From contig JAMXLF010000024.1 in assembly GCA_024281055.1 (NCBI GenBank), positions 62,001 to 126,000 of the forward strand: a stretch of 64,000 bases of DNA, read 5' to 3'. Below are positions 55,019-64,000 of this stretch, in pieces. The number at the start of each line of letters is the position of its first letter. Positions within the stretch are counted from its first letter, which is position 1. A model generated the notes under the pieces. The model made no database searches. It saw only the letters and a list, made by a program, of their open reading frames with translations, and had not been told where the DNA came from. A program made the translations under genes and the position numbers. This stretch comes from Geobacteraceae bacterium (GTDB taxonomy: Bacteria > Desulfobacterota > Desulfuromonadia > Geobacterales > Geobacteraceae).

Positions 55019-56359
55019 GTGAACAAAACCCTTCTCATTGTGTGTCTTGCCGGCAGCATGACTCTTTTGCCGATCTCTCCCGCCTCCGCCGAGTCATGCA
55101 CCACCTCGACATGTCATCCGGCAATTACCGGTCTGAAAAATCAGCATTCGCCCGTAAAGGATGGTGATTGCCTTGCATGCCACAAGCAGATTGCCAATGC
55201 GCATCCCGCCAAGGGAAACAAGGGGTTCGAGCTGACGGCCAAGGGGGCCGCGCTCTGCGCCCAGTGTCATGAGGCGATGGGGAAGAAGAAGGATGTCCAT
55301 GCGCCGGTCAAGGAGGGTGACTGCCTTGCATGCCACAAGCCGCACGGCGCGAATAACCGTTTTCTGCTGGAGGTGGGGGACGATCAGAGGGAGCTTTGCT
55401 TCAGTTGCCATGACAGTGCCGCGTTCAAGGAAAAATACCTGCATGGACCTGCCGCTGTCGGAGCCTGCACCAAATGTCACGATCCTCATGAATCCGACGA
55501 AAAGCATCTTTCCAGGATACCTGCCCGGGAAAGATGTCTGCGGTGTCACGCCGATTTTGCCAAGGGCATGAATGATGCGAAGGTGATTCACGCGCCGGTG
55601 CAGCTCAACCAGTGTTACTCCTGCCACGACCCGCACGGTTCCGCACTTCCCAACATGCTCACGAAAAAAATGCCGGACCTGTGTGTTTACTGTCACAAAA
55701 AGGTCGGTGAAAAGATGGTTAATGCCAAGGTCCCGCACAAACCACTTCTGCAGGTGGGGGGGTGCGGCACCTGCCATTCCGCCCACTTCGCCAATGCCAA
55801 AGGGCTCCTTGCGGCAGACGAGATGACGGTCTGCCTCAACTGCCACGGCAAGGACAACCTCGGCACCCCTCCCCTGAAAAACATCAAGAGGGAGATCACC
55901 AGCAGGAAGTACCTGCATGGTCCCATCCTGAAGGGGCAGTGCAAGGCGTGTCATGATCCCCACGGGTCAAACTTCTTCCGCATGCTCCGGGGAAATTATC
56001 CCCGTGAACTGTATGTTCCCTATAAAGAGGGGACCTATGACGCCTGTATCGGCTGCCATGACAAGAATCTCCTCCGTTTCGAGGAAACGTCGCTCTACAC
56101 CAAATTCCGCAACGGCAAACGGAACCTCCACTACGTCCATGTTGCCAATACCCGGAAAGGGCGTACCTGTCGCATTTGCCATGAGCCCCATGCCAGCGAC
56201 GAGATGCGGTTGATCAACAAGAAGGGATACCAGTTCGGTGACTGGAATATTCCCATTAATTTCGAGATTACCCCTACCGGCGGCCGTTGCGCCCCCGGCT
56301 GTCACCAGCCCATTGCCTACGACCGGGAAAAACCGGTAGCTGGAGGCTTTGCCCGATAG
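55019..56359 (+). CDS. Multihaem cytochrome c, 15 predicted haems
   Basis: The 446-residue protein starts at a GTG giving a clean signal peptide (KTLLIVCLAGSMTLLPISPASA). It carries 13 CxxCH motifs (for example CLACH, CAQCH, CFSCH, CTKCH, CLRCH, CYSCH). It also has one CX4CH (CTTSTCH, directly after the signal) and one CX3CH (CAPGCH, near the C-terminus). Haem-binding units recur every ~30 residues with H-x-PV and PHG/PHE spacers, the doubled-CXXCH arrangement. It is predicted to be periplasmic and to feed electrons to the outer-membrane genes downstream. Confidence 0.93.
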   Translation: MNKTLLIVCLAGSMTLLPISPASAESCTTSTCHPAITGLKNQHSPVKDGDCLACHKQIANAHPAKGNKGFELTAKGAALCAQCHEAMGKKKDVHAPVKEGDCLACHKPHGANNRFLLEVGDDQRELCFSCHDSAAFKEKYLHGPAAVGACTKCHDPHESDEKHLSRIPARERCLRCHADFAKGMNDAKVIHAPVQLNQCYSCHDPHGSALPNMLTKKMPDLCVYCHKKVGEKMVNAKVPHKPLLQVGGCGTCHSAHFANAKGLLAADEMTVCLNCHGKDNLGTPPLKNIKREITSRKYLHGPILKGQCKACHDPHGSNFFRMLRGNYPRELYVPYKEGTYDACIGCHDKNLLRFEETSLYTKFRNGKRNLHYVHVANTRKGRTCRICHEPHASDEMRLINKKGYQFGDWNIPINFEITPTGGRCAPGCHQPIAYDREKPVAGGFAR

Positions 56360-56411
56360 GGGACGGAGTTGCAGGTACCCATGTAAAGCCTACGAAGGAA
56401 AAGGAGCAGCA

Positions 56412-57617
56412 ATGTCAGCAATGCAAGATCGAACATTTTCTCCCCGAAAGATTGTCGCCGCTACCATGTTCCTGCTGGTATCAGCCGCCATCCTTTCCGG
56501 CTGTGCACAGCAACAGGCATGCTCGACGAAACCGACCTTTTTCCCTCCTCCGCCGGACGAGCCGCGGATCCAGTGGCTCACCGGGATTTCTACCTCCGAG
56601 GATATCGGCGCCAAAGAATCCGTGAGCAAGTTTTCACTTATTGTGACCGGGCAGGAAGCGCCGACCGTCATACGCCGGCTCGGCAAATCCTACGGTCTGG
56701 CCGTACGCGACGGCCGGATCTATGTCGCCGAAAGCGGCGAGGGGCGAGTCGCCATTATCGATCCGGCCAACAGCACCTTTGAGTACCTCAAAGGGATGGA
56801 GGACCCGCGGGGGGTATTGAAGGAGCCGGTCAACATGGCCTTCGACAAGGAAGGATTCCTGTACGTGGCCGACACGGGGCGAAGGGAGATTGTCGTCTAC
56901 GCCCCGGACGGGAGCTACTCCAACGCCTTCGGGCGCAATCTGGCGCAAGGCTCGAAGATCGTTTCCGTCGCCGTGCATCAGGACAAACTCTACGCCCTCG
57001 ACCTCGGCGCCAGCCGGATCAGGGTGCTTGACCGCAAGACCGGAGAGCAGGAGACGGAGTTCGGCTACGTTGATAAGCCGAACCAGAGCCTGCGGGCGCC
57101 GAGCAACTTTACCATTGACGACAAAGGTGCCATCTATGTCACGAACATCGGCAATAACAAGGTCATGAAATACGACCTGGACGGCAACTTCCTCGGTTCC
57201 TTCGGCGGGGTCGGTGACCAGATAAGCACCTTTGCCAAGCCGAAGGGGATAGCAGTGGATGACGAGGGTCGCATCTACGTTGTCGATGCCGGGACCAACG
57301 TGATCCAGATGTTCGACGATCAGTTCCGCCCGTTGACGTTTTTCGGATGGCCGGGGCTCGAGACCGGATCGCTGAACATGCCCGCGGGAATCCTGGTGAC
57401 CAAGGAGAACCTGCAGTATTACCAGAAATACGCGGTTCCGGGGTTCCAGTTGGAACGTCTGATCCTGGTAGTGAACCAGTTTGGCCGTCAGTTCTGCATC
57501 CCCCGGATTTCCATTTACGGCCTCGGCCGGATGCAGGGTAAAAAGAGTGAAATTCCGTCTCCCCTGGAGGAGAAAAAGGTGAAAACCGCCGACTGTCGTC
57601 CCGGAATGAACGACTGA
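56412..57617 (+). CDS. NHL-repeat lipoprotein
   Basis: The 401-residue protein starts 5 bases after AAGGAG. A type II signal ends in ILSGC, so it is a predicted lipoprotein. About six NHL blades follow (KEPVNMAFDKEGFLYVADTG, KPKGIAVDDEGRIYVVDAG), forming a beta-propeller. The C-terminal tail is lysine-rich. NHL proteins beside multihaem cytochromes and barrels are typical of Geobacter-type gene clusters; a scaffold role is inferred. Confidence 0.9.
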   Translation: MSAMQDRTFSPRKIVAATMFLLVSAAILSGCAQQQACSTKPTFFPPPPDEPRIQWLTGISTSEDIGAKESVSKFSLIVTGQEAPTVIRRLGKSYGLAVRDGRIYVAESGEGRVAIIDPANSTFEYLKGMEDPRGVLKEPVNMAFDKEGFLYVADTGRREIVVYAPDGSYSNAFGRNLAQGSKIVSVAVHQDKLYALDLGASRIRVLDRKTGEQETEFGYVDKPNQSLRAPSNFTIDDKGAIYVTNIGNNKVMKYDLDGNFLGSFGGVGDQISTFAKPKGIAVDDEGRIYVVDAGTNVIQMFDDQFRPLTFFGWPGLETGSLNMPAGILVTKENLQYYQKYAVPGFQLERLILVVNQFGRQFCIPRISIYGLGRMQGKKSEIPSPLEEKKVKTADCRPGMND

Positions 57618-57660
57618 CCTGGCGAAGGAAGAAAAGGACAGCGGACGCTGACCGTTAAGT

Positions 57661-58251
57661 ATGACAGGGGCTTGGGAGCGAATGGGCAAACGAGGCATGA
57701 TTTTTTGGATTGCGGTCCTGGCAGGGCTGCTGAGTGGCTGCGACCCCGTTACTACCCACAAAATTACGTCCACAATCTTTGACGGTGTGCCGAGTATGCC
57801 CACAGCCGAGGAGTACTGCCGGGATTATCACCAGCAGGCAGTGGCCGAGGAACGCGAAGCCGAGAAAAGGCAGCAGATTGCCAAGGAAAAGGCCACGGCG
57901 TCAATCCACCCACCCTACGAGGAGAAACGCTGTAACGACTGCCACGACAAGAACACCGACTCCGGCTTCATCGCGCCGAGGAAGGAACTCTGTTTTGTCT
58001 GCCACAAGGACTTTCTGCAGGGCTCGTTTGCCCATGGCCCGGCGGCGGTCGGCGACTGTCTGGCATGCCACCTCCCCCACAGCTCGTCGTACCCAAGCCT
58101 GCTGAAAACGCCAAAAGACCAGATTTGCTGGATGTGCCACAAGGAGCCGCGGGTAGCCCTGGGACTTCATGCAGCATCCAAGGACAAGCGGTTGCTCTGT
58201 ACGGAGTGCCACAACCCCCACGCCAGCAACGCTCGCTTTTTCCTGGAATAA
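57661..58251 (+). CDS. Five-haem cytochrome c lipoprotein
   Basis: The 196-residue protein has the lipobox LLSGC after FWIAVLAG and five CxxCH motifs: CNDCH, CFVCH, CLACH, CWMCH, CTECH. A charged coiled-coil (EEREAEKRQQIAKEKA) links the anchor and haem domain. The start at 57661 has no good ribosome site; an ATG at 57682 (GGAG 3 bases upstream) would give the same mature protein. It lies just before the barrel gene, as expected of the periplasm-facing cytochrome of a porin-cytochrome complex. Confidence 0.9.
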   Translation: MTGAWERMGKRGMIFWIAVLAGLLSGCDPVTTHKITSTIFDGVPSMPTAEEYCRDYHQQAVAEEREAEKRQQIAKEKATASIHPPYEEKRCNDCHDKNTDSGFIAPRKELCFVCHKDFLQGSFAHGPAAVGDCLACHLPHSSSYPSLLKTPKDQICWMCHKEPRVALGLHAASKDKRLLCTECHNPHASNARFFLE

Positions 58252-58258
58252 TTCCGTT

Positions 58259-60262
58259 ATGCTGACCAGGGTGACATTCATATGCCTGCTCATCATCATG
58301 TGTTGCCTGGGGCAGGCGTATGGTGCCGGCACGGTGGAGGTCAGGCAGGCGCGCGGGCTTATCCTGCTGGAGAGTGTCCAGCAGTGGGTCGGGTTGCGCT
58401 ATCAATACAACAATCACAGCTCCGACAGTGGGAACAGCAATTACGACTCAAACAATTTCGACGAGATCTATCACGTCAGCACCAGCTTCTCCCTCCTTGA
58501 TCCCCATCTCCTCCATACAAGCCTGGATGGAGAGCTCTGGCTCCATCAGAACCAGCTTTCGAGCGATGCGAGCGGATCATCCTCGGGAAACGGCGTCAGG
58601 TACCAGTACAGCCTCACTGCAAGCGCACTGGACAGATCGTGGCACCCGGTCATCGTCTACAGCTCGATTGCGAATGATACGGTGGTTGCACCCTTCTCGC
58701 CGTCCTATGACACCCAGACCGGCAGACACGGCATCCAGTGCTCGCTCCTGAAAGACACCTCCAGCGTCAAGTTCCGGTTCGAGAGAAACAGCCTTGACGT
58801 CAGCGGCGCCGGGACCGACAACAGCACGACCTCCGATGACTTTCAGCTTTCCGGAAGCCACGACTACCGGGGAATCATGTCCAACAACATCGATATCTCC
58901 CTGGGCTACCAACGCAGCACAAGCCTGGGTATCAGCCAGGCGGGCAACAGTTTCTCCCTCACGTACGGCAACAATCTCAACTGGGGGGAGGTGAGGAAAT
59001 CCAGTCTTGCCTCGCTCTTCCAGTGGGACAATGTCACATTCGGCGGTTTGCCACAGCGAAACATCCTCTGGGAAGAAAATTTGCAGAGCCAGTTGGGGAG
59101 GGCCCTGGAGGGTGAGGCGATCTACCGCTACAACCGGACCACTACTGCCATATCCCCGTTCGTGGATCAGGATTACAGCGTCAATTCATTCCTCGGCATC
59201 CTCAGGCACCACCTTTTCGAGAGCCTCGAAACCCGTCTGCGGGGGGGGGTTACGGAGAGCGAGCTGATGGGGAGGAGCGAGAGTTCGAGTAACGAGGCGA
59301 TCGATCTGACGTATCGGAAAAGGCTTCCCGCCAAGAGCCGGCTTACCGTCGACGTTTCTGCGGAGCACCGGTTGACCGACCGCAAGTTCGATGCCGGCAC
59401 ACTTGTCACTGCCAACAAGCGGTTTACCGTCATCCAGCCTTTCGACATCATTGACCTCAAGATCACCGGCGTTCTGGTCTCCGGTTCGGTCACGGTCAAG
59501 GGATTCAACGCTCCGCCGCCCAACCTGCAGTTCCCCCCCGACGTCACCTACGTTGAGGGAATCCATTATACCGTTGATTACACCCTCGGGCACATTGTCT
59601 GGATAGCGGCCGTTCCGGTGGTGCCGACCATCGTTGTCAGCTTTACGAGCCGGTTCGACCCGTCCGTGGAATTTTCAACCAATACCATAACGGTCTCCAG
59701 CACTCTTTCCCTGTTTGATAACCGCTACCTGGTGAGCGGGTATTTTCTCGGCCAGAACTACAACATCATATCAGGGCTGTCCCAGGGGCTCTACGACACG
59801 CGCATCGCGCGGCTGCAGTTCCAGGCCTTCCTGGGAAAGCAAACCTACAGTCTCATTTACAACGATTACGCTGCCGGGCCGACGAAATACCAGTATGTCG
59901 AGGGGCTGTGGCAGTACAACACGACGTCTCCCCTTGCCTTCCACGTGCTGGTGCGAGACCGCTACACCATGTATGACGCCACTACTATCTTTACGAACCA
60001 ATATACGAACAACAGTCTGAGTGTTTCGGCGTCGTGTTCCCGCCCTATCTTCGGCCTTGCGCAAGCCATGGTGTCGCTCAACTTCCTCGATGAGCATGAC
60101 GATCTGACGGGGACAACCGATAGCATCTTTGTCAGGGGCAGCATCAGGTCACGCTTCAATAAGCTCGTCGTCGAGCTGCTCGGATCGTCCGGCGCGCGGA
60201 TCAGGTCAAACACCACGACGTGGGACAACTACTTTCGCTTTGAAGTGCAGAGGTTTTTCTGA
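58259..60262 (+). CDS. Outer-membrane beta-barrel protein (candidate electron-conduit porin)
   Basis: The 667-residue protein has a signal peptide (VTFICLLIIMCCLGQAYGAG). The rest shows alternating-residue amphipathic strands, mostly aromatic-rich, and ends in FRFEVQRFF, the terminal-Phe signal for barrel assembly. An insert around 430-480 (FNAPPPNLQFPPDVTYVEGI) looks like a small soluble beta-domain. It is much longer than the known Geobacter porin-cytochrome barrels (about 300-450 residues). It contains no CxxCH. It starts 7 bases after the five-haem gene and overlaps the next gene by one base. Confidence 0.82.
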   Translation: MLTRVTFICLLIIMCCLGQAYGAGTVEVRQARGLILLESVQQWVGLRYQYNNHSSDSGNSNYDSNNFDEIYHVSTSFSLLDPHLLHTSLDGELWLHQNQLSSDASGSSSGNGVRYQYSLTASALDRSWHPVIVYSSIANDTVVAPFSPSYDTQTGRHGIQCSLLKDTSSVKFRFERNSLDVSGAGTDNSTTSDDFQLSGSHDYRGIMSNNIDISLGYQRSTSLGISQAGNSFSLTYGNNLNWGEVRKSSLASLFQWDNVTFGGLPQRNILWEENLQSQLGRALEGEAIYRYNRTTTAISPFVDQDYSVNSFLGILRHHLFESLETRLRGGVTESELMGRSESSSNEAIDLTYRKRLPAKSRLTVDVSAEHRLTDRKFDAGTLVTANKRFTVIQPFDIIDLKITGVLVSGSVTVKGFNAPPPNLQFPPDVTYVEGIHYTVDYTLGHIVWIAAVPVVPTIVVSFTSRFDPSVEFSTNTITVSSTLSLFDNRYLVSGYFLGQNYNIISGLSQGLYDTRIARLQFQAFLGKQTYSLIYNDYAAGPTKYQYVEGLWQYNTTSPLAFHVLVRDRYTMYDATTIFTNQYTNNSLSVSASCSRPIFGLAQAMVSLNFLDEHDDLTGTTDSIFVRGSIRSRFNKLVVELLGSSGARIRSNTTTWDNYFRFEVQRFF

Positions 60263-61359
60263 TGCTTGAGCGCTACACCGGTCATGGGAAATGGGGAAGC
60301 TGTTCAGGGATGGTGCGCCTGTCCGCGATCATCCTGCGCTGCTGCCTGGCGTGGTCGCTTCTCTTTCTGGCGGCCTGCGCCGCCGCCCCTGTTTCCATCC
60401 ATAAGACCGAACCGTCCGTCGGCCTGCAGTGGCCGCAGCAAACGGCCGGTTCGAAGGTCGTCTGGGTCAAGACCCTTACCGGGTACCGGGATGCGGGGAT
60501 TACCAAGGGCTTCTGGAAGAGGGCACTGGAGTTTTTCACCGGCGCGGATGAGCGCCGCATCATGCGGCCATACGGTGTACTGTTCGATGAAGCAGAACGG
60601 CTCTTCATAGCCGATCCCGGCGGAGGCGTTGTACACTTCATGGACCTGAAGGAAGACAACTACACCGTAATAGGCGGCGAAGCCGGCTCACCCTTGCGTA
60701 CACCCATAGGTGTAGCCGAAGACGAATCGGGCCACCTGTATGTCACCGACTCGACCCTCGGCGCCATCTTTCGCGTCGATCTTCGGGACGGTGCCGTAAC
60801 GCGGTTCCCTGTCCGCAGGCTGGGCAGGCCTACCGGTATCGCCTACAGCCGGGCTAACAAGCTCCTCTATATTGTCGACACCACCGGCAGCCAGGTGGTC
60901 GCGGTCGACACGCAGGGCAAGGAGCGGTACCGGTTCGGCGCGCCCGGGGAGGGCCCGGGGCAGTTCAATCGCCCCACCGATATCGCCGTGGACAATCGGG
61001 GCCAGGTATACGTCACGGACCCGCTCAACTACAAGATCAAGATATTCACACCCGAAGGGCTTCCCGTGAGCCAGTTCGGCACCGCGGGGGACGCCTGGGG
61101 CGAACTTGACAAGCCGAAGGGGGTGGCGGTGGACAGCGGGGGGCACATCTATATCTGTGACGCCCTCCTGGACGCCGTCCAGGTCTTTGACGACTCCGGC
61201 CGTCATCTCCTTACCTTCGGCGTCACCGGGACCGACAACGGTCAATTCTGGATGCCGTCGGGGATCTACATCGACCGGCGCGACTATATTTTCGTTGCCG
61301 ACACCTACAACCGACGGATCCAGATCTTCAGGTACATGGCGGGCGCGGCTGGCAAATGA
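60262..61359 (+). CDS. Second NHL-repeat lipoprotein
   Basis: The 365-residue protein has the lipobox LFLAAC. The ATG at 60262 shares a base with the barrel stop (TGATG), with AGAGG 8 bases upstream; a later ATG at 60310 would give a shorter, more typical signal. NHL blades include PIGVAEDESGHLYVTDST, RPTDIAVDNRGQVYVTDP and KPKGVAVDSGGHIYICDA. It is related in architecture to the NHL lipoprotein at 56412 but not a close copy. Confidence 0.9.
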   Translation: MLERYTGHGKWGSCSGMVRLSAIILRCCLAWSLLFLAACAAAPVSIHKTEPSVGLQWPQQTAGSKVVWVKTLTGYRDAGITKGFWKRALEFFTGADERRIMRPYGVLFDEAERLFIADPGGGVVHFMDLKEDNYTVIGGEAGSPLRTPIGVAEDESGHLYVTDSTLGAIFRVDLRDGAVTRFPVRRLGRPTGIAYSRANKLLYIVDTTGSQVVAVDTQGKERYRFGAPGEGPGQFNRPTDIAVDNRGQVYVTDPLNYKIKIFTPEGLPVSQFGTAGDAWGELDKPKGVAVDSGGHIYICDALLDAVQVFDDSGRHLLTFGVTGTDNGQFWMPSGIYIDRRDYIFVADTYNRRIQIFRYMAGAAGK

Positions 61360-61415
61360 CCCCGGTCTCCCTCTGAATAAAGGGAGGTCGGAGGGGTTAT
61401 GACAAAAGGTGAACC

Positions 61416-63329
61416 ATGAAAAGATGTCTTTTCATAGCAGACATTATGAAACAGCGAGGCCGTTTCACCCTCCTGGCCGCGGTGTGGTGCGGCTTCGCAG
61501 TGCTGGCGCCCGGCACCTCGTCCGGCAAGGAGAGCATCATCACCTCGCCTCACAACCTCTCCGCCAGCGGTGGGTCGGGGAAACACGGGATTAAATTCGA
61601 CGAGGTGCGCGTCTGCGTCTTTTGCCACGCCCCCCATAACGCCCGTCCGAAGGATACTATTCCCGCGCCGCTCTGGAGCCGCGACCTGCCGTCGGACACC
61701 AAAGAGTACACGATGTACCACTCCACTACCTTCGACACCGCGGTCACTCTGAAGTCAGACAAACCCACCGGTGCATCCCGCCTCTGTCTGAGTTGCCATG
61801 ACGGTACCATTGCCCTCAACAGCTACCGTGGCCGCGTGATCGTGCCCGGCGGTGATGACATCGGGCCGGCCTCCAACGCGCCGACTGATGACATGGGCCC
61901 GGCCTCTTACATGCCGACCGATACGCGGTATCCGACCTGGAACCCCAGGCTGGGGGGGGGCGCGGGGAACGATTTCTCGGACAACCATCCCATCTCCTTT
62001 TCCTATACCGCCGGGTTGGCCGCCATTGCGCAGCTCGCCCTCCCGTCAGCGCTGCCGCCGCAGATCCGGCTCGAATTGGGGGAGTCGCTCCAGTGCATAT
62101 CCTGTCACGACCCCCACAACAACGAATTCGGCAACTTTCTCGTCATGGACAACAACCAGTCGGGCTCTCCCCTCTGCATGGCCTGTCACAACGGCATCGA
62201 CTGGCGCACGTCGGGCCACTACCCGCTCCAGGCCCAGGACCTGGACGGTAGTCGGACATTCGGCTGCATGAACTGTCACTACACCCATAACGCCCCGGCC
62301 CCCGACCGCCTCCTCCACAGCCCGAAGGGAGTGGATAACTGCATCACATCAGCCTGTCACAATAACGGAACCGCTCCCGTCTCGGCCAATGTGCAGCCGG
62401 TTTTCGCCATGATCTACCGGCACCCGGTCTCCTTCTACGCCGGGGACCATGATGCGAAAGAGGTCCTTCCCGCCCAGAAACTCCACGTGGAGTGCGTCGA
62501 CTGCCACAACCCGCACCAGGCCAACCGGACCAATGTGCCGCTCTCCTTCCCTCCGGCAATAAACGGCACACTGAAAGGGGTAAGAGGGGTCAGTAAAGAC
62601 ACCAAGGCGGCTGTGATAGCCACCGCCGAATACGAAATCTGCTTTAAATGCCATTCAGGAGTCAATGCCGCGTCGTTCCGCGGTACTCCCCCCGAGACCC
62701 CGCCCAACCGGATGCAGGCCGAACCGGATGAGATGAGAAGGTTCGACAGCTTGAACACCACCTCCTATCACCCGGTCACTGCCCAGCGCCGGGGGAATGG
62801 GGCAAGCCTTCTGGGGAGCTACCGGACCGACATGCAGAGGGTCTACTGCTCTGATTGCCACAACAGCGACCAGAGTTCGAAGGCCACGGGAGGAACCGGC
62901 TCCAACGGCCCCCACGGCTCGCAGTACGAACATATCCTCATTGCCGGCTACGACATGCCCGTACCGGTGACCCAGTCTCCCACCTACCAACCCGTTTTCG
63001 ACTTTAACAACCGCTACGCCCTCTGTTTCCGCTGTCACGACTCCAACTACGTCATGGGGAGCAGTTCTGGCTTCTACAACAGTGCGACCTCCACCGCCGA
63101 GCACACGAAGCACGTCCAGGAGCGTGGCATCCCCTGTTTTGCCTGTCACGACCCCCACGGGGTAACCGGGATGCCTGCCACCGTAAGCAGTCACCTCATA
63201 AATTTCTCCAAAGACTACGCCTATAGCCTTGCCCTGCCCAATCCCACCTATATCCCCACCGCCACCGGAGGCTCCTGCACGGTGGTATGCCATAGCACCG
63301 GCAACAAGACCGAAACCTACACCCGCTGA
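61416..63329 (+). CDS. Multihaem cytochrome c, 12 predicted haems
   Basis: The 637-residue protein has a signal sequence (FTLLAAVWCGFAVLAPGTSSG). There are ten CxxCH motifs (CVFCH, CLSCH, CISCH, CMACH, CMNCH, CVDCH, CFKCH, CSDCH, CFRCH, CFACH), one CX4CH (CITSACH) and one CX3CH (CTVVCH, near the end). Haems are spaced more widely than in the first cytochrome, with large Ser/Thr/Pro loops, as in outer-surface cytochromes of the OmcB/OmcS class. It is the last gene of the cluster and may be the extracellular partner. Confidence 0.92.
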   Translation: MKRCLFIADIMKQRGRFTLLAAVWCGFAVLAPGTSSGKESIITSPHNLSASGGSGKHGIKFDEVRVCVFCHAPHNARPKDTIPAPLWSRDLPSDTKEYTMYHSTTFDTAVTLKSDKPTGASRLCLSCHDGTIALNSYRGRVIVPGGDDIGPASNAPTDDMGPASYMPTDTRYPTWNPRLGGGAGNDFSDNHPISFSYTAGLAAIAQLALPSALPPQIRLELGESLQCISCHDPHNNEFGNFLVMDNNQSGSPLCMACHNGIDWRTSGHYPLQAQDLDGSRTFGCMNCHYTHNAPAPDRLLHSPKGVDNCITSACHNNGTAPVSANVQPVFAMIYRHPVSFYAGDHDAKEVLPAQKLHVECVDCHNPHQANRTNVPLSFPPAINGTLKGVRGVSKDTKAAVIATAEYEICFKCHSGVNAASFRGTPPETPPNRMQAEPDEMRRFDSLNTTSYHPVTAQRRGNGASLLGSYRTDMQRVYCSDCHNSDQSSKATGGTGSNGPHGSQYEHILIAGYDMPVPVTQSPTYQPVFDFNNRYALCFRCHDSNYVMGSSSGFYNSATSTAEHTKHVQERGIPCFACHDPHGVTGMPATVSSHLINFSKDYAYSLALPNPTYIPTATGGSCTVVCHSTGNKTETYTR

Positions 63330-63345
63330 AGCGTCCCTTTCTGTC

Positions 63346-63373
63346 GGCCCTCAGGGGTTTCCCCCTGAAGGCC
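63346..63373 (+). terminator. Hairpin after the last cytochrome gene
   Basis: GGCC-C-TCAGGGG pairs with CCCCTGA-A-GGCC around a 4-base loop, with one C/A mismatch. It begins 17 bases after the stop. No T-run follows, so termination is uncertain. Confidence 0.4.
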
Positions 63374-63475
63374 GGCTGACCACCCACCTTTCCCCGTAAA
63401 CTCCACTACCTGTCCGGTGCTCGTCTGCGCGCCCGGTTGCCTGTCCGGGTTCATTCCTAGTCAGAACTCAGCATT

Positions 63476-63549
63476 CCCCCCTCCCGACCTCCCCCCGCTG
63501 GGGGGAAGAGCTTGCTCCCTCCCCCGGAGGGGGAGGGCCGGGGTGGGGG
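63476..63549. repeat. C/G-rich palindromic repeat
   Basis: Two nested palindromes (CCCCCCGCTGGGGGG and CCCTCCCCCGGAGGGGGAGGG-like) sit inside a larger arm pair, CCCCCCTCCCGACC versus GGCCGGGGTGGGGG. The layout resembles the interior of the element at 47556-47728 (CCCTCACCCTAGCCCTCTCC). Confidence 0.55.
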
Positions 63550-63946
63550 AAACTGTTGTATTTGCCACAGATAAAGGGCTAATTGGTTTTTCCAGGTTCA
63601 ACGCTCCTTCTGCCGCCACAGAGCCCCCCTTGCTGTGTTTCATCCCCACCGGGAACCGTCCCGATGCGTCCCGCCCTCGTGACGAAAAGCATCGTCACAA
63701 GGTTACAAATCGAGCATTTTAAAGATGACAATTTAATGTCTGTGAGATGACGGCATAAAATTGGTTGGATGACCGAAAACTGATTTGCGATATTCGGGTT
63801 CGGGTCAACGGGGCTTCGAAGAAGAGTGTCAGGGTGGGGTGGCTTGTTCGGACATGTTGTGCAAGACATTGATAATAATAAATAAATTTTTTGGTGTCCT
63901 GGCAGGTTGAAACCGGGCCTTTGTGGTTGGCAATGTGCGTATTAAA

Positions 63947-63962
63947 TGGCATTTAAATTGCA
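63947..63962 (+). promoter_or_regulatory. Sigma-54 (-24/-12) promoter reading out of the window
   Basis: TGGCATTTAAATTGCA matches the consensus TGGCAcg-N4-TTGCA, with the invariant GG (63948-63949) and GC (63960-63961) at the exact 10-base spacing. Initiation would fall about 12 bases downstream. Only 38 bases remain in the window. Confidence 0.6.
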
Positions 63963-64000
63963 AAACAAGCTTGAATTAAAATCTGTTCAAGCCAAATGAC

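Follow-up and report, generated by a model that had tools for sequence, protein, structure and literature searches.

We describe six co-directional genes (A to F, in that order, on the + strand) in a 64,000-nucleotide stretch of a Geobacteraceae bacterium genome (GenBank assembly GCA_024281055.1, contig JAMXLF010000024.1, positions 62,001 to 126,000; hereafter the window), whose products would form a trans-outer-membrane electron conduit serving cytochrome filaments of the OmcE type, with the 12-haem cytochrome F as the adaptor between the two. We favour this reading, with some reserve, on the strength of sequence comparisons and structure models. Specifically, we found that the parts of a porin-cytochrome conduit, which an earlier sequence-only reading had proposed here, are indeed present and are kept together as a unit across several phyla, that D is predicted to be a large barrel, that F contains an OmcE-like domain, and that such sets are associated with OmcE-like genes.

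All six open reading frames (ORFs) are present, in the gene order claimed in the sequence-only reading. A (55019..56359) is a 15-haem c-type cytochrome with a signal peptide, related to MtrA/DmsE-type proteins. It is followed by the NHL beta-propeller lipoprotein B (56412..57617; lipobox LSGC, alanine at +2), the 5-haem lipoprotein C (57661..58251; five CXXCH motifs, lipobox LSGC), the predicted outer-membrane beta-barrel D (58259..60262; 667 residues, about 28 strands in the AlphaFold model), a second NHL beta-propeller lipoprotein E (60262..61359; lipobox LAAC) and the 12-haem cytochrome F (61416..63329), of which residues 28-259 are OmcE-like and hold four haems, the remainder holding eight more. 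Pfam and NCBIfam searches of A, B, C, E and F detected haem-binding and NHL families (the NHL matches in B and E lying above the Pfam cut-off), and localisation was judged by eye from lipoboxes and signal peptides. The gaps between successive genes are 52, 43, 7, -1 and 56 bases, and the six genes probably form one operon. The interval previously assigned to the system (55019-63329) takes in all six genes but stops short of a probable OmcE-like gene 859 bp after F. This gene starts at 64189, beyond the window, on the far side of an intergenic stretch (63330..64000 on the + strand within the window), and the contig (which we label C24; the source genome is 4.44 Mb) ends 34 bases into it, at window coordinate 64222. 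When the final 14 kb of the contig were searched with Rfam, five rows came up, all far below gathering scores, and thus no riboswitch was found before the OmcE-like gene.

A first scan of genome contigs with D alone found no relative. As a query, D matched 20 of 48 family genomes (its own included), representing 7 of 14 genera; identity in the genomes other than its own was 22-29%. Of 20 neighbourhoods picked from such matches, 18 show A to F in order, and two (L028 and L029; L, G and g denote our labels for loci, genomes and genera) are truncated at contig ends. A scan with profiles for each of the six proteins then covered a set of loci, in which the 80 named loci from the A profile are the best 80 of 415 relatives, and the 20 family neighbourhoods, 12 loci from the D profile and six from the F search are our picks from longer lists. 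There were 65 D loci, of which 49 had at least 2.5 kb upstream and at least 3.5 kb downstream (operons of one genome being counted separately) and 16 were left out for too little flank; L001-L026, other loci of up to 6000 bases, and D hits shorter than 540 residues or scoring up to 60 bits had been dropped before this count. Among the 49 flanked loci, the order B-C-D-E-F was found in 36, B-C-D in 41, C-D in 43 and D-E-F in 44, meaning that the set is kept together beyond chance. A lay within 7 kb of D in 40/49, a figure that is biased upward because most named loci were found through A.

The B-C-D-E-F order recurs in Planctomycetota or Phycisphaerae records (e.g., L054, L064, L106 and L118), Nitrospirae (L069), Deltaproteobacteria and Desulfocapsaceae (L068, L108) and Vicinamibacteraceae (L085). 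In five Bacteroidota records (L083, L084, L095, L111, L127) B-C-D is kept and D-E-F is not, E-F being found elsewhere. In a phylum sample of 395 genomes, the D profile matched 37 at E<=1e-8 and 26 at E<=1e-35, most of the other 11 matching through the insert of D or a part only. A was found at E<=1e-60 in 23 of the 26 genomes with full-length D vs. 28 of the 369 others (kinship not corrected), and in one of the three full-length-D genomes without it (G217) a weaker relative of A lies next to B (L160). At 12 loci chosen from the 26 full-length hits (L155-L161, L173-L177), C was present in 10 (a 6-haem lipoprotein in L174) and A in 7; 11 of the loci had an OmcE-like gene no further than 7 kb from D. 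As for copy number, G034 has a single D match, six genomes of genus g7 have second D matches, and L046 and L136 are second, divergent copies of the whole operon; in the copies examined, A and B have an OmcE-like gene between them.

The link to OmcE, which the sequence-only reading overlooked both within F and downstream of it, has two components. The first is F itself, a candidate outer-surface cytochrome with 12 haem motifs (ten CXXCH, one CX4CH and one CX3CH); across 18 aligned rows CX4CH is invariant and CX3CH is invariant or at least 90% conserved. Residues 28-259 align with the OmcE nanowire structure 7tfs (E 5.7e-17) over four haem motifs, and His 46, 74, 191 and 234 also align with OmcE; these histidines and the four motifs are invariant in the 18 rows. 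In OmcE, one haem is ligated by a histidine of the next subunit, as described in a 2025 review (PMC12307469). F thus keeps what such a contact might need, and by analogy may use it. One could go further and propose that F is the base piece of OmcE-type nanowires, i.e., that its OmcE-like domain caps or seeds the filament through the same inter-subunit haem contact, that its C-terminal part sits on D, and that the resulting socket, parts of which are conserved from Geobacteraceae through to Planctomycetota and Bacteroidota, both anchors the filament and charges it; we regard this extension as tentative and somewhat doubtful.

The second component is the OmcE-like gene (defined as an F-profile match above 60 bits with four CXXCH motifs and fewer than 340 residues), which was found no more than 7 kb from D in 37/49 flanked loci; in L042 and L046 it sits between A and B. 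The 4-haem proteins of L068, L135 and L181 match OmcE (7tfs) in the PDB with E-values of 1.5e-38, 6.1e-62 and 3.8e-25, respectively, and that of L068 belongs to the OmcE family across almost its full length. In the window's own genome, the 34 bases at the contig end are identical at 33/34 positions (by eye) to those that open an OmcE-like gene located at the end of contig C73, contig C38 ends in an OmcE-like gene whose 5' part is missing, and contig C19 has a complete one. That C24 (L047, 14189-14222), C38 and C73 (L152 and L153) all end within OmcE-like genes suggests that near-identical copies of such genes may be what breaks the assembly.

The AlphaFold model of D (built from 23 rows; mean predicted local distance difference test score, pLDDT, 86.5; predicted template-modelling score 0.68) is a confident barrel with a soluble insert, in agreement with the beta-barrel call made from sequence. 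By our own count from the secondary-structure line, 17 strands are followed by the low-confidence insert and then by 11 more, giving 28 in total, or 30 if two strands at the edges of the insert are counted with the barrel. D had no Pfam family at E<=0.1 and only one weak NCBIfam row (E 0.059, below cut-off), with no MtrB-type NCBIfam match at E<=0.1. Structure comparison returned the pilus ushers PapC and FimD (Z 19.3 and 19.1) and MtrB (Z 18.3 over 442 residues, the longest alignment among the 50 rows listed). As modelled, D is a large barrel of MtrB size, and it presumably lies in the outer membrane. Published strand predictions are 18-22 for the porins of porin-cytochrome conduits (Pcc) and 28 for MtrB (PMC4245776). 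The earlier claim that D is bigger than OmbB-type porins therefore stands, but we rejected the idea of an outsized-barrel class, given that MtrB is predicted to be of like size.

The insert (modelled stretch D residues 372-474; 59372..59680 on the + strand) keeps its pattern in 23 rows from several phyla and is modelled as a small beta domain (pLDDT 74.5). Its best fold comparison was a phage baseplate protein (Z 7.8), and with no Foldseek row under E 0.001 it has no firm fold match. On its own, the insert also matches mostly small, other proteins (in G320, G129, G102, G095, G082, G163, G314 and G339), meaning that this domain seems to exist apart from the barrel.

The usher matches bear on a different explanation, namely that the set is a device for filament secretion or assembly. 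OmcE-type subunits would then be exported through D, plugged or gated by its insert; B and E would be propellers that help in assembly; and the remaining cytochromes would seed the filament or check it, much as has been proposed for the osc proteins and OmcS. The barrels of PapC and FimD hold an inserted plug, and chaperone-usher architecture combines such a plugged barrel with N- and C-terminal domains. The barrel strands of D span residues 33 to 666 of 667, leaving no room for these terminal domains; as D also had no Pfam usher match at E<=0.1 and the resemblance is confined to the barrel, we rejected D as a chaperone-usher. The usher plug was absent from the rows listed for the isolated insert, which argues against a secretion pore without excluding such a fold. 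Also against it are the presence of cytochrome C beside D in 43/49 loci, which would be odd for a pure exporter, and the lack of a peptidyl-prolyl isomerase (PPIase, or rotamase) domain in the six window proteins (by Pfam, the sequence past the contig end being unseen). On the other hand, ushers are the top fold matches of D, OmcE-like genes lie near 37/49 D loci, and Osc proteins have already been assigned roles with OmcS, i.e., OscH in folding, OscE/F/G in secretion and OscD in morphology (PMC13194489; PMC12977616). Taken together, we consider secretion distinctly unlikely as the function of the set.

Returning to a conduit, the cytochromes encoded with the barrel, A and C, carry 15 and 5 haem motifs and would both be periplasmic. 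A has 13 CXXCH, one CX4CH and one CX3CH motif, and the Cys and His of all 15 are invariant in 18/18 aligned rows (window included); since both unusual motifs are invariant, 15 haems are well supported. The GTG at 55019 is the likelier start, as had been claimed, with the protein opening MNKTLLIVCLAG, a plausible signal peptide by eye; our searches with A used a start at 55040, seven residues shorter. A matched TIGR03508 and a GSU2203-family model in NCBIfam (both below cut-off) and, in the PDB, chain A of an Mtr complex (6r2q_A, E 1.6e-13; the entry title reads Mtr complex, and chain A carries a different molecule name in the PDB copy). It is probably a periplasmic wire. Among the matches listed, its closest relatives in named genomes are from an Oryzomonas metagenome-assembled genome (MAG; 61%) and a Geobacteraceae MAG (55%). 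In C, the five CXXCH motifs are invariant in 16/16 rows, and the layout consists of a DGVP motif after the lipid cysteine (G42 and P44 invariant in the 16 rows), a variable linker and the five haems.

We envisage a path in which electrons would pass from a periplasmic or inner-membrane donor to the 15-haem wire A, and from A to the 5-haem lipoprotein C. Barrel D would lead them from C to F, placed outside, which would hand them on either via its OmcE-like domain to an OmcE-type filament or directly to a mineral, with the propellers B and E possibly scaffolding or assembling the complex. Which cytochrome would occupy the barrel is a separate matter. C adjoins D in 43/49 loci and A occurs in operons in which no D was found, and for these reasons we give C close to an even chance of being the partner of D. 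A placement of A in D, by analogy with MtrA in MtrB, draws support from A's match to 6r2q chain A and is in our view rather unlikely.

The same match invites the explanation that the set is an ordinary Mtr-like surface reductase, with A in D like MtrA in MtrB, F reducing minerals like MtrC, and the OmcE link being mere clustering of electron-transfer genes. This would agree with the resemblance of A to chain A of the Mtr complex, with the like sizes of D and MtrB, and with the co-occurrence of A and D. It would give no reason for F having an OmcE-like domain or for the recurrence of an OmcE-like gene, and A-type proteins are also found in operons in which D was not detected (two of them in this genome), where their neighbours are a thioredoxin-like protein (by eye) and, in many cases, an 8-haem cytochrome. 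We therefore hold a plain Mtr-like reductase to be quite improbable.

Several observations weigh against a filament-serving conduit as we have drawn it. Six of the 49 flanked loci (L175, L176, L178, L180, L182 and L183) have neither C beside D nor A within 7 kb, and in 12/49 no OmcE-like gene was seen within 7 kb of D. F, which the path places outside the cell, has no lipobox. The residue at +2 after the lipid cysteine of C is Asp, Glu or Asn in 25 of 39 readable lipoboxes (43 proteins examined by eye); in E. coli such residues favour retention at the inner membrane, and C would be retained there if that rule held here. This residue and the six loci without adjacent C tell specifically against C as the partner of D. 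Finally, MtrB is tied with the chaperone-usher pores (Z 18.3 vs. 19.3 and 19.1) and comes fifth among the many large barrels returned by Foldseek, where all listed TM-scores are at most 0.40, so that the fold of D does not decide its function.

Among published systems, the nearest kind is Uet (undecahaem electron transfer), described in Ca. Tenderia and some Gallionella as a tetrahaem and an undecahaem cytochrome, two NHL proteins, a barrel, an isomerase and three trihaem cytochromes (PMC10734462). A conduit with two NHL proteins is thus already in print, and the possible distinct conduit class of the sequence-only reading is not supported by the two propellers as stated. Two NHL proteins (B and E here) are common to both systems, and by description Uet also resembles the window set in having a barrel (UetC) and tetrahaem and 11-haem cytochromes. 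The F profile matches the 11-haem protein of L181, a locus of Uet-like composition, with 282 bits (F itself having 12 motifs, UetJ being undecahaem), and tetrahaem UetA may correspond to the OmcE-family genes of the relatives, of which the window contig has only the first 34 bases of a probable example. By contrast, the window set has no PPIase (UetB) and no trihaem cytochromes (UetDEG) among its six genes, the sequence past the contig end being unseen, and carries a 5-haem lipoprotein and a 15-haem cytochrome instead. Given that isomerase and trihaem cytochromes are two defining parts of Uet, we did not file the set as Uet; within the broad group to which Uet also belongs, it appears to be a distinct variant.

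Three loci help to place this variant. L181 (in G586) encodes a tetrahaem cytochrome, a PPIase, a 589-residue protein, three trihaem ORFs, an NHL protein and the 11-haem cytochrome, with matches to the E profile (254 bits) and the OmcE family as well as to F, and its composition points to Uet; the D profile found nothing in G586 at E<=0.01, and the 589-residue protein is only presumed to be a barrel. Sulfurimonas L124 has a PPIase, a weak D match, two NHL proteins, an F relative, an OmcE-like gene, a 12-motif A relative and an 8-haem cytochrome, and by this predicted content is intermediate between Uet and the window set. L135 (in G009, probably Geobacter-like) shares an A-like cytochrome (11 motifs), an NHL lipoprotein, an OmcE orthologue and a 748-residue protein that is barrel-like by eye and has no Pfam match; it differs in its order (11-haem, 8-haem, one NHL, OmcE, 748 residues), and no D match was found in G009.

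The genes linked to OmcS have been read as a conduit, OetABI, and each cytochrome filament has been proposed to work with a porin-cytochrome conduit (PMC10553843), a proposal that the window set would fit. The osc and oet genes are probably one cluster, judging from their position beside omcS, and share with our set (compared by description, not sequence) a filament cytochrome encoded with a proposed channel or conduit. They differ in having an OmcS-type hexahaem cytochrome, the filament-type genes checked here (L068, L135, L181) being of the OmcE family, and in having OscH, which we take to be an isomerase and which has no counterpart among the six window proteins. Pcc (OmbB-OmaB-OmcB) and MtrCAB have a barrel with periplasmic and outer cytochromes, the arrangement also predicted here, with a barrel of MtrB-like size; to these the window set adds NHL proteins, the OmcE-like domain in F, the 5-haem lipoprotein and the barrel insert.

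Another possibility, which we consider highly improbable, is that the same hardware works inwards and takes up electrons instead of exporting them, their source being Fe(II), metallic iron, a cathode or a partner cell. Among the matches listed, the nearest named relatives are Geobacteraceae, a family best known for outward electron transfer, and sequence cannot tell direction. Uptake would nevertheless be in keeping with the description of Uet in cathode-oxidising Tenderiales (PMC10734462) and with a Geoalkalibacter ferrihydriticus locus proposed for iron oxidation (Ga0056053_02426-02431), which by description shares an MtoA-like cytochrome, an OmcE homologue and two NHL proteins, and in which mtoB is absent according to the authors' published account (PMC12016550). 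Desulfovibrio ferrophilus also has, by description, clusters tied to the outer membrane in which NHL proteins accompany multihaem cytochromes (DFE_0448-0451, DFE_0461-0465), and the authors see no porin-cytochrome conduit in its genome (PMC9769857). Our literature searches, whose coverage was partial, found no description of the exact six-gene set, which may be in print.

The membrane anchoring and secretion of OmcS nanowires are called still speculative in the same 2025 review (PMC12307469). The set brings together an OmcE-like gene, a barrel, cytochromes of the inner side and, as the putative outer cytochrome, F with its OmcE-like domain. It is therefore a concrete and testable candidate for the connection of a filament, and, if the favoured reading is true, it may be the socket that links a protein wire to the cell. 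No D barrel was found in four sampled genomes of genus g6, which from its OmcE orthologue looks like Geobacter sensu stricto, and work on G. sulfurreducens may therefore have missed this barrel.

Some further variation was seen around these genes. Where A-type 15-haem cytochromes occur in an operon with no D detected (L057, L058, L062, L128, L129 and L131, with L128 and L129 from the window's own genome), they are accompanied by the thioredoxin-like protein (by eye; about 335-377 residues) and, except in L128, by an 8-haem cytochrome. Six loci (L087, L101, L105, L131, L134 and L137) encode large relatives of A that carry 19 to 26 haem motifs and look like extended forms. In the Bacteroidota loci L083, L084 and L095, the C protein keeps the same five haem motifs but is far longer, at 656-804 residues, and A comes immediately after D. 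On contig C38, the cut OmcE-like gene is followed (L152, 13794-18146) by a 4-haem protein with a PKD-like domain and then by a 942-residue 7-haem protein. L155, L156 and L159 have 7-haem proteins of comparable size on the downstream side of F.

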